From Halanaerobium praevalens DSM 2228 (GTDB taxonomy: Bacteria; Bacillota; Halanaerobiia; Halanaerobiales; Halanaerobiaceae): a DNA stretch of 64,000 bases. The position numbers were made by a program, and so were the translations under genes. The notes beneath the pieces are model-generated. The model saw nothing but the letters and a program-made list of their open reading frames with translations. It searched no databases and had not been told where the DNA came from. The stretch is from the NCBI RefSeq assembly GCF_000165465.1, contig NC_017455.1:1364001-1428000 (forward strand), read 5' to 3'. Positions 3,040 through 61,407 of the stretch are shown here, piece by piece (within the stretch, counting starts at the first letter, position 1; each line of letters starts with the position of its first letter).

Positions 3040-3297
3040 CTATTTAGAACCCTTAAGGGGGAAATTGGCAACAAGAGCAGTCATATCATCTTCTCTTTTA
3101 ACATCCATCTCTATCTTTTGGGAATCAACATCTATATATTTACTTAAAACTTCAATTAGTTCATCCCTCATTGCATCCATTTCTTCTGGAGTGAGTTTAA
3201 CTCTATCCTGAACAAGTACAAATTGTAATCTTTCTTTTGCAACATTTTTACTTTGCTTATCATCACTTTTTAAACCAAGCCATTTTAATATATCGAT
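3040..3297 (-). CDS. minE: Cell division topological specificity factor MinE, apparent ATC start
   Basis: I translated this gap between minD and rodA and found an 85-residue MinE. The N-terminus reads (M)DILKWLGLKSDD, followed by AKERLQFVLVQDR, the MinD-contact helix region, then a C-terminal topological domain ending in ALVANFPLKGSK and a TAG stop at 3042-3040. MinE stimulates the MinD ATPase and drives pole-to-pole oscillation. There is no in-frame ATG, GTG or TTG between the minD stop (3318-3316) and the conserved N-terminus. The only well-placed codon is ATC at 3297-3295, 4 bases after a run of seven G followed by AG. The product is very likely; the ATC start is inferred from position and family alignment. 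Confidence 0.88.
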   Translation of the reverse strand: MDILKWLGLKSDDKQSKNVAKERLQFVLVQDRVKLTPEEMDAMRDELIEVLSKYIDVDSQKIEMDVKREDDMTALVANFPLKGSK

Positions 3298-3315
3298 TTT
3301 ACTCCCCCCCTTATA

Positions 3316-9881: not shown

Positions 9882-10478
9882 TTATAAGATTCCATAGTTA
9901 AACTCTTTTAACAATTTAGCAAGTTGATGAATAGGCATTCCCATAACTGAATAATATGAGCCTTTTATTTCCTCAACAAAAATACCGCCTAAACCTTGAA
10001 TAGCATAAGAACCAGCTTTATCTAAAATATTTTCTTGCTCAATATATTTTTCAATTTCTACTTCTGTTATATTAGACATTTTAACTTCAGTAATATTATT
10101 TGCAGCTTGAACTTCGTCAGAAACTGAATTTAAAACTGCTAAACCAGTTATCACTTGATGCTCTTGACCACTTAATTTTTTAAGCATTTTTTTAGCTTCA
10201 ATTTTATTTTTTGGTTTACCTAAAATTTGATCATCAGCTACAACTACAGTATCTGCAGCTATAATTATTACATTTTCTACTAATTTAGCAACTGCTTTTG
10301 CTTTTTCTACAGCTAAAATTTCTACTAATTCAACTGGATTGTCAGCCTTAAATTCACTTTCATCAATTTTAGAAGGTACTACTGTAAATTTTAATTTTAA
10401 TTGTTTTAAAATTGCTTCTCTTCTAGGAGAAGCTGATGCTAAAACTAATTTTAAGTCATTTTCTTTGGCCTCTTTAAT
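9882..10478 (-). CDS. maf: Maf family nucleotide pyrophosphatase, apparent ATT start
   Basis: A nucleoside triphosphate pyrophosphatase of the Maf/YhdE family, thought to hydrolyse dTTP/UTP or modified nucleotides. I extended the frame upstream of the first internal ATG and recovered the whole conserved N-terminus: LVLASASPRRE, then IIIAADTVVVADDQILGKP, giving 198 residues, the usual family length. In-frame codons between an upstream TGA and LVLASASPRR include no ATG, GTG, TTG or CTG. The best start is ATT at 10478-10476, 8 bases after GGGGAGG and overlapping the stop of the upstream Gx transporter gene. Starting at the internal ATG (10187) would delete the catalytic half. Confidence 0.88.
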   Translation of the reverse strand: MKEAKENDLKLVLASASPRREAILKQLKLKFTVVPSKIDESEFKADNPVELVEILAVEKAKAVAKLVENVIIIAADTVVVADDQILGKPKNKIEAKKMLKKLSGQEHQVITGLAVLNSVSDEVQAANNITEVKMSNITEVEIEKYIEQENILDKAGSYAIQGLGGIFVEEIKGSYYSVMGMPIHQLAKLLKEFNYGIL

Positions 10479-11001
10479 CTTTAAAACCTCCCCTCAAAAT
10501 AGAATTTGGTAAATATTTGAGAGTGAAATAACTGACTAAGCCTACTCCCAAACCAGTTGGAAGGGCTAAAATCATTAGAAAAGGAAGATAATAAAAAATA
10601 CCTTGATTAGCAATAATAAAATAAGCTGCTATAATTTGAGCTATATTATGTGCTACAGCTCCAATTATACTAATTCCAATTAAAGAAAATTTATTTTTTA
10701 AAAAATAATAAACTAAATACATTAAAACAAAGCTTAAAAGACCACCACTAAAACTTAAATAGAAATTGATAGTCATAAAAGTTCCTGCAAGTAAAGAACC
10801 TAAGATAACTCTAAAAATAACCACTTCCAAAGCTGCAGTAAAAGGAAATAAATAAATAGCTAGTAAAGAAACAATATTAGCTAATCCTAGTTTAGCTCCT
10901 GGAACAATTGTTGCCAAGGGAAAAAAACTTTCTACCAGATGTAAAACTAGTCCTAATGAAATCAAAAGCGCTATGATAACTATTTTTTGAGTTTTTTTCA
11001 T
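10474..11001 (-). CDS. Gx transporter family membrane protein
   Basis: A 175-residue membrane protein with about five hydrophobic helices. It matches the Gx transporter family (older name heptaprenyl diphosphate synthase component I), which belongs to the ECF S-component-like group. Visible signatures are ESFFPLATIVPGAKLGLANIVSLLAIYLF cut into its conserved core PGAKLGLAN, and the C-terminal LALPTGLGVGLVSYFTLKY. Its neighbour, the NusG-domain-II protein, is a classic partner. The substrate is unknown. The stop overlaps the apparent maf start, suggesting coupling. Confidence 0.8.
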   Translation of the reverse strand: MKKTQKIVIIALLISLGLVLHLVESFFPLATIVPGAKLGLANIVSLLAIYLFPFTAALEVVIFRVILGSLLAGTFMTINFYLSFSGGLLSFVLMYLVYYFLKNKFSLIGISIIGAVAHNIAQIIAAYFIIANQGIFYYLPFLMILALPTGLGVGLVSYFTLKYLPNSILRGGFKD

Positions 11002-42749: not shown

Positions 42750-42796
42750 TAAAATATTGAAAGAGTTAATCGCACAAATTCTCAGGAGGTATAAAA

Positions 42797-43411
42797 CTGG
42801 ATACTAGAACCCATAAATTATTAGCTTATAAAATTCACAATCATTTTGCTAAAAATGACATTTGGCTTTCTAAAATGGCTTTGGCTTGGGGAAGTATGAA
42901 ACCTGATTTTATAGAAGGAAATATTAATCATTTTAAAGATGAGACAATGGAAAATTTTTATAAACAATATGAGCAATTACAAGCAATGAATCCAGATCAA
43001 AGACCTTACAAATTCGCAGTTAAATTAGGAGAATTATTCCATTACACTGCTGATTATTTTTGTAGGGCTCATAATGATCCAGAGCTTAACCCAGGTAGCA
43101 TTTGGGAAAAGACTGTTCATATTTTTCATGAATGGAAATTAAATCAACATGCTCAAAGTTTACACCCAGATTTTTTTAAAAAAGAAATAGAAGAAAGCTT
43201 TGTTTATAAAAATGATTTAAAAACTATTATTGAAAAAGAACACAGCTCTTTTTTAAAAAGAGAATATAGTTTTGAAAATGATCTTAATTCAGCTTTTAGA
43301 GTTTGTATTTTAATGACAAATAAGTTAATTTATGAATTACAGCTAAAAGAGAATTATTCATTTGCTCAAGTTTTTAATTTGAGACATCGCTTACTTTATC
43401 AAAATGCTTAA
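42797..43411 (+). CDS. Zinc-dependent phospholipase C-like protein, apparent CTG start
   Basis: A 204-residue protein resembling the Zn_dep_PLPC family. The sequence DTRTHKLLAYKIHNHF at the N-terminus holds the early conserved TH; KMALAWGSMKPDF, GELFHYTADYFCRAHND and HEWKLNQH are further metal-ligand-like segments. The first in-frame ATG (42875) would remove the conserved N-terminal His. CTG at 42797 has AGGAGG 7 bases upstream and restores it, with only ATA or AAA as other nearby codons. Lipase activity has not been shown for short members of this family. Confidence 0.75.
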   Translation: MDTRTHKLLAYKIHNHFAKNDIWLSKMALAWGSMKPDFIEGNINHFKDETMENFYKQYEQLQAMNPDQRPYKFAVKLGELFHYTADYFCRAHNDPELNPGSIWEKTVHIFHEWKLNQHAQSLHPDFFKKEIEESFVYKNDLKTIIEKEHSSFLKREYSFENDLNSAFRVCILMTNKLIYELQLKENYSFAQVFNLRHRLLYQNA

Positions 43412-60956: not shown

Positions 60957-61294
60957 TTATAATCCCCAAAAAAGCTTAATTAATAGAGGCACCACAACCA
61001 AAAGTATTAACTGCAAAGGTAAACCGGTCCAGAAAAAATCCTGGAACTTATAACCTCCTGGTCCATAAACCATCATATTCGTCTGATAACTCATTGGAGT
61101 TAAAAAAGCTGAACTGGCCCTAAAGCAAATGCCATAGGGTTTAATCCCAACTGCCTGGCAGCATCTAAAGCTATAGGCAGCATTAATATTACTGGAATAG
61201 AAAGAGCAATTATATCTATCCGAATAGGTTCTAGAATAAACATTGTTATTAAAAATATTAAAAGTAATATCATAAAAATAATTCCTGCTTCCAT
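60957..61294 (-). pseudogene. SLC13-type permease remnant (internal deletion and frameshift)
   Basis: Two disjoint pieces of one permease family are fused. Residues 1-38 (MEAGIIFMILLLIFLITMF..., IDIIALSIPVILML) match the first membrane helix; immediately afterwards comes PIALDAARQLGLNPMAFA, which belongs near the C-terminus of SLC13 proteins. The frame then stops, but another frame continues with RASSAFLTPMSYQTNMMVYG, PGGYKFQDFFWTGLPLQLIL and an LFWGL end at 60957. Most of the normal protein (several hundred residues) is missing, so this is not functional. Confidence 0.85.
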
Positions 61295-61407
61295 AGATGA
61301 ACCTTTATATATAAAAAAATTATAGCTTAATTTTTAATTTCACTCTATATATTTTATTCTTGATAAATTAAAACAAACCTTTAAATTAAGTTTAGATAAA
61401 AAAATCC

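Follow-up and report, generated by a model that had tools for sequence, protein, structure and literature searches.

The window, by which we mean the whole 64,000-nucleotide stretch of the Halanaerobium praevalens DSM 2228 genome analyzed here, carries on its minus strand a maf reading frame that overlaps the end of a gene of the Hpre_diP_synt_I / Gx-transporter type (Table 1). After a TGA at 10496-10494, the maf frame is open from 10493 to 9882 and spans 203 codons from stop to stop. Its earliest ATG, GTG or TTG is an ATG at 10187-10185, which is codon 103 and has 102 codons ahead of it. This reading of the frame agrees with an earlier note on this DNA, which had found no conventional start between the TGA and LVLASASPRR; the further prediction of that note, that gene calling limited to ATG, GTG and TTG would return a 101-residue C-terminal fragment, was reproduced by a mechanical ORF reading. 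The full frame matches the Pfam Maf family (PF02545) over residues 15-198 with 209 bits against a cut-off of 27, and scores 200.6 against a cut-off of 117.15 with TIGR00172, in keeping with a full-length Maf nucleotide pyrophosphatase domain. Because the PF02545 match extends over nearly the whole frame, the 101-residue reading would be without about half of the Maf domain.

Table 1. Features of the window discussed in the text, with positions counted from its first nucleotide
Feature	Coordinates	Strand	Remark
maf coding sequence, if begun at ATT	9882..10478	-	198 codons plus stop, open frame
Internal ATG, first conventional start of the maf frame	10185..10187	-	product of 101 aa
TAA of the upstream Hpre_diP_synt_I / Gx-transporter-type gene (10474-11001)	10474..10476	-	overlaps the ATT by one base
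ATT, proposed maf start	10476..10478	-	corresponds to the second maf codon (ATT/ATA/ATC) in close congeners
AAG at the putative ancestral ATG position	10479..10481	-	from comparison with congeners
Shine-Dalgarno (SD) region GAGGGGAGGT (GGGGAGG = 10493-10487)	10486..10495	-	8 nt from the ATT
minE, proposed start ATC 3297-3295 after AAGGGGGGG	3040..3297	-	first 45 codons of its frame without a conventional start
Zn-dependent phospholipase C family gene	42797..43411	+	proposed start CTG 42797-42799 after AGGAGGT (42784-42790)

From the TGA to LVLASASPRR, just two codons differ from ATG by a single base, namely the ATT and the AAG at 10481-10479. The earlier note had placed the ATT at 10478-10476, with GGGGAGG eight bases away and with bases in common with the upstream TAA, and this proved exact: the spacer (10486-10479) is 8 nt long and a single base is shared. 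As in infC, a near-cognate codon lies at a functional distance from a strong SD, and no AUG, GUG or UUG precedes the conserved domain as far back as the in-frame stop; as in translationally coupled pairs, the stop (TAA, 10476-10474) and the start (ATT, 10478-10476) overlap. The computed duplex of the maf SD with the 16S tail has an energy of -16.1 kcal/mol. None of the 53 window ORFs used for comparison pairs as strongly at its best start; the set was hand-picked, and the best conventional start within 26 codons was taken for each ORF. The near-cognate codons ATT, ATC, ATA and CTG together make up about 8% of the codons in ten long window ORFs, so that an ATT at this spot is by itself weak evidence and the case depends on the relatives. 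Local RNA structure at the junction was weak and showed nothing unusual (z +0.6 and +1.5). Two possible causes of an altered start were considered and rejected: the 16S tail that was searched for, containing the anti-SD, is present four times in the genome, and the IF3 protein looks normal beside those of 11 congeners.

All 38 Halanaerobiales genomes examined contain maf. When the starts were compared in close relatives, a check that the earlier note had suggested, ATT was found in the place of a conventional start only in H. praevalens DSM 2228, and the start was ATG, GTG or TTG, correctly positioned, in 37 of 37 other genomes. On this comparison, it is the absence of a conventional start, not the position of the ATT, that is beyond chance, with 0 of the 37 relatives being without one. 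As a start codon, ATT is conserved in none of these relatives, in contrast to the non-AUG starts of infC and minE, which are conserved. The junction in close congeners can be written GGAGG-TAATTTTA-ATG-ATH-AAA, or, for seven of them, GG(A/G)GG-TAATTTT(T)A-ATG-AT(T/A/C)-AAA, while in the window it is GGAGG-TTTTA-AAG-ATT-AAA, i.e. GGAGG-TTTTAAAG-ATT-AAA. The simplest account would be a change of the ancestral maf ATG to AAG by one substitution, plus a deletion of 3 nt from the spacer. Through this deletion, the old second codon ATT would now be as far from the SD as the ancestral start was, and the 8 nt between SD and ATT in the window indeed equal the distance between SD and ATG in most of the seven congeners. 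As judged from the aligned junctions, the maf ATT is simply inherited as the old second codon. The computed SD pairing of the seven congeners with the same junction, -9.8 to -10.9 kcal/mol, is weaker than that in the window. Among the 13 relatives compared, L021 equals the window in SD strength (-16.2 kcal/mol) and yet starts with ATG, and three others that start with ATG (L020, L023 and L024) reach -14.2 to -15.3 kcal/mol; strong SDs thus occur with ATG starts as well and do not single out the maf gene with the ATT start.

The presence of conventional starts in all 37 relatives and the single substitution that separates AAG from ATG would also fit a sequencing or assembly error in an ordinary gene, in which the correct base would give back the ATG at 10481-10479 or create some other conventional start. 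However, the DSM 2228 genome is described as finished with 174x 454 and 201x Illumina coverage, base polishing and an error rate of less than 1 in 100,000 (PMC3156398). By our own arithmetic, this stated rate corresponds to fewer than about 0.06 affected start codons out of 2,110. An error at the start would also leave the 3-nt spacer deletion and the stronger SD unexplained, and we regard this explanation as quite improbable. A broken maf, which has lost its start, yields at most the 101-residue C-terminal fragment and is turning into a pseudogene, would agree with the loss of the ancestral ATG and with the 42 pseudogenes reported in this genome (PMC3156398), but the 203 codons are free of stops and the gene is the sole maf copy in the genome (one contig of 2,309,262 bases). 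If the internal ATG were the only start, nothing would keep the upstream half of the frame from decaying. Amino-acid identity between the window and 13 relatives is 0.684 before the internal ATG (0.693 for the other pairs) and 0.641 after it (0.672 for the other pairs). By this measure there is no relaxed conservation in the N-terminal half, although a very recent start loss would look identical, and we consider a broken gene improbable. With the N-terminal half as conserved as elsewhere, AUU is most likely the codon from which the full-length protein is translated.

The comparative case makes translation of full-length Maf from AUU the best explanation and, in our judgment, a probable one. 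The ancestral ATG would have changed to AAG in the H. praevalens lineage, and translation would begin at the next codon, the ATT that ancestrally encoded isoleucine. There, fMet-tRNA would presumably read AUU with a mismatch at the third base only, while the strong SD 8 nt upstream would hold the codon in place. The predicted product is full-length Maf, fMet-KEAKENDLKLVLASASPRR..., probably made at reduced yield, and ribosomes may arrive either de novo via the SD or, if the two genes are coupled, by re-initiating once they have terminated at the overlapping stop of the upstream gene. The proposal of the earlier note is thereby upheld in part: its non-AUG start at the ATT is well supported by the lost ATG, the ancestral SD distance, the strong SD and the conserved N-terminal half. 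The weak local RNA structure, the non-AUG starts of infC and minE in related genomes and the precedents in Staphylococcus aureus described below also speak for this start, while one point against it is that the ATT-start maf is seen in one genome of one strain. Switches from AUG to AUU are very rare, with 1 found among 61,358 ancestral AUG starts in a survey of related genomes (PMC5622118), which gives a rough guide only because it covers close relatives and presumably annotated starts.

Two further readings of the junction were rejected on anatomy. The AAG at 10481-10479 occupies the ancestral start position and could in principle be the start codon in place of ATT, but it is just 5 nt from the SD and would mismatch the initiator tRNA at the middle base. 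In vitro, IF3 is described as requiring Watson-Crick pairing at the first two bases, so that mismatches there are excluded, and as tolerating some mispairing at the third (PMC10158994), which favors AUU over AAG; a start at AAG is highly improbable. A +1 frameshift from the upstream membrane protein into a fused Maf would be allowed by the position of the maf frame, which is +1 relative to that of the upstream gene and stays open across the final codons of this gene. Such a fusion is extremely improbable, as there is no good +1 slip at GAT-TAA, where tRNA-Asp would need to re-pair with ATT, and the relatives have a separate maf start.

Under the preferred AUU start, full-length Maf might be produced mainly by termination-reinitiation after the upstream gene, a special form of the same explanation whose probability overlaps with that of the whole. 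The one-base overlap of stop and start would suit this route, and an SD is known to help re-initiation (PMC2268962). Counted from the ATT, the upstream gene and maf overlap by 5 nt in the window, compared with 8 nt in the ATG congeners (ATGATTAA), and by this comparison the stop/start overlap is ancestral. Because the ATG congeners overlap too, the overlap is no evidence for the ATT, and coupling, if present, would be ancestral and would not need it. The strong SD would also allow ordinary de novo initiation, and we rate re-initiation as the main route as possible, at somewhat less than an even chance.

The maf ATT is most likely a further case of the kind of start known from infC and pcnB. 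The AUU, AUA and AUC starts of infC, which encodes IF3, differ from AUG at the third base only and follow a strong SD, as in maf; the infC start is conserved and linked to the way IF3 regulates its own synthesis, whereas the maf ATT is confined to one genome. Escherichia coli pcnB is, like maf, a single chromosomal gene with an AUU start, and this start has been reported to limit expression. Pairs coupled by termination-reinitiation share with the maf junction the overlap of stop and start, and their usual start codons are conventional. For Staphylococcus aureus, a report describes an AUA start in infC and conserved non-canonical starts with extended SDs in cvfC1 (AUU) and ccpN (AUA); Ribo-Ret and reporter data support these AUU and AUA starts as active, if weaker than AUG (PMC13009471). 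The cvfC1 and ccpN starts are conserved and backed by such experiments, in contrast to the putative maf ATT start, which is not conserved. They are the closest parallel to the minE gene of Halanaerobiales, in another gene and another taxon.

This minE gene seems to be non-AUG-started through most of the order, and its conserved start is the part of our results most worth pursuing, beyond the single maf case. Within the region examined (3040-3315, minus strand), the window minE begins ATC-GAT-ATA-TTA after TATAAGGGGGGGAGTAAA. In 33 of the 38 Halanaerobiales genomes, the stretch from the minE SD to the N-terminus of MinE is free of conventional start codons. The codon at that spot is ATC in 28 of these, ATA in two (L075 and L077) and ATT in three (L079, L133 and L134); in L067 and L079, two of the 33, a conventional codon occurs ahead of the SD. 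The remaining five genomes have ATG, which is 5 nt from the SD in L131 and just 2 nt after it in L135-L138, where an ATT follows at 8 nt. All of these starts were assigned by eye on printed codons (loci L053-L082 and L131-L138). As ATC accounts for only 0.5% of codons in the ten long window ORFs, its occurrence at the minE start spot is unlikely to be due to chance. Outside Halanaerobiales, minE starts with ATG, GTG or TTG in all 40 sampled genomes (conventional start missing in 0/40); these were taken, mostly one per family, from the best-scoring of 320 phylum genomes with a match, and genomes with weaker matches were left out.

Similar starts were found in three other genes. The infC gene starts with ATC after AGGAGGTGCATAA in all 12 Halanaerobium genomes (L041-L052). 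For the phospholipase-C-like gene, 13 of the 15 order homologues with a readable start have CTG and the other two TTG (loci L159-L168 and L254-L258, and 42770-43411 on the plus strand of the window; 17 genomes matched, the weak partial L259 and L260 being left unread). A subtilase-family gene of the congener G011 (L187:8421-10229, minus strand) has ATC after an SD in seven of the nine congener homologues read (L240-L248), with GTG in one of the other two and TTG in the last, a fragment; it had no match in the H. praevalens DSM 2228 genome.

These genes suggest, tentatively and as a rather unlikely possibility, that Halanaerobiales may have a standing set of near-cognate-start genes that is kept by selection, translationally throttled and tunable by IF3. 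The set would comprise minE (AUC, AUA or AUU, in most of the order), infC (AUC), the phospholipase-C-like gene (CUG) and the subtilase gene (AUC, in most congeners having it); the MinE dose would be set relative to MinD, and maf would be a recent recruit in H. praevalens. The conserved minE AUC start, if confirmed, would connect the choice of start codon with the ratio of MinD to MinE, by which the division site is positioned, and the maf junction looks like a natural one-codon start shift with a changed SD and spacer. Gene callers limited to ATG, GTG and TTG would halve Maf and truncate or miss MinE, so that species would wrongly seem to be without them. A literature search over titles and the opening of abstracts, with most subscription journals outside its reach, returned nothing on non-AUG starts of minE or maf, or on non-AUG starts in Halanaerobium.

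We also surveyed sampled stretches for ORFs that combine coding character before the first conventional start with an SD and a near-cognate candidate. This gave 4 of 411 in the H. praevalens genome (including the window, which is a non-random sample), 3 of 334 in G011, 2 of 348 in G332 and 0 of 337 in G282. The approach misses genes with any nearby ATG, GTG or TTG, and the phospholipase-C-like gene came from a separate search and is outside these counts. The counts are too small and partly spurious, and a genome-wide excess of non-AUG starts in the genus is not demonstrated by the sampled stretches. Several rows look spurious, L150, L189, L198, L204 and L212 having been assessed by eye. One candidate for a start-less gene, L151:14928-17909 (minus strand), was rejected as a broken ROK-family gene that continues, without a change of frame, into a gene of glycoside hydrolase family 2.

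An FAD-binding flavoprotein gene of H. praevalens (L147:7733-9745, plus strand) has ATT at a position occupied by ATG in six congeners and by TTG in two; its SD is weaker, and an in-frame ATG-GGG-TAG stands just upstream. Elsewhere in the window, positions 60957-61333 (minus strand) hold what looks like the remains of a gene of the sodium:sulfate symporter type. A short, hydrophobic N-terminal segment and the final portion of the Pfam domain are present in different frames, and the gene has probably been internally deleted and frameshifted.
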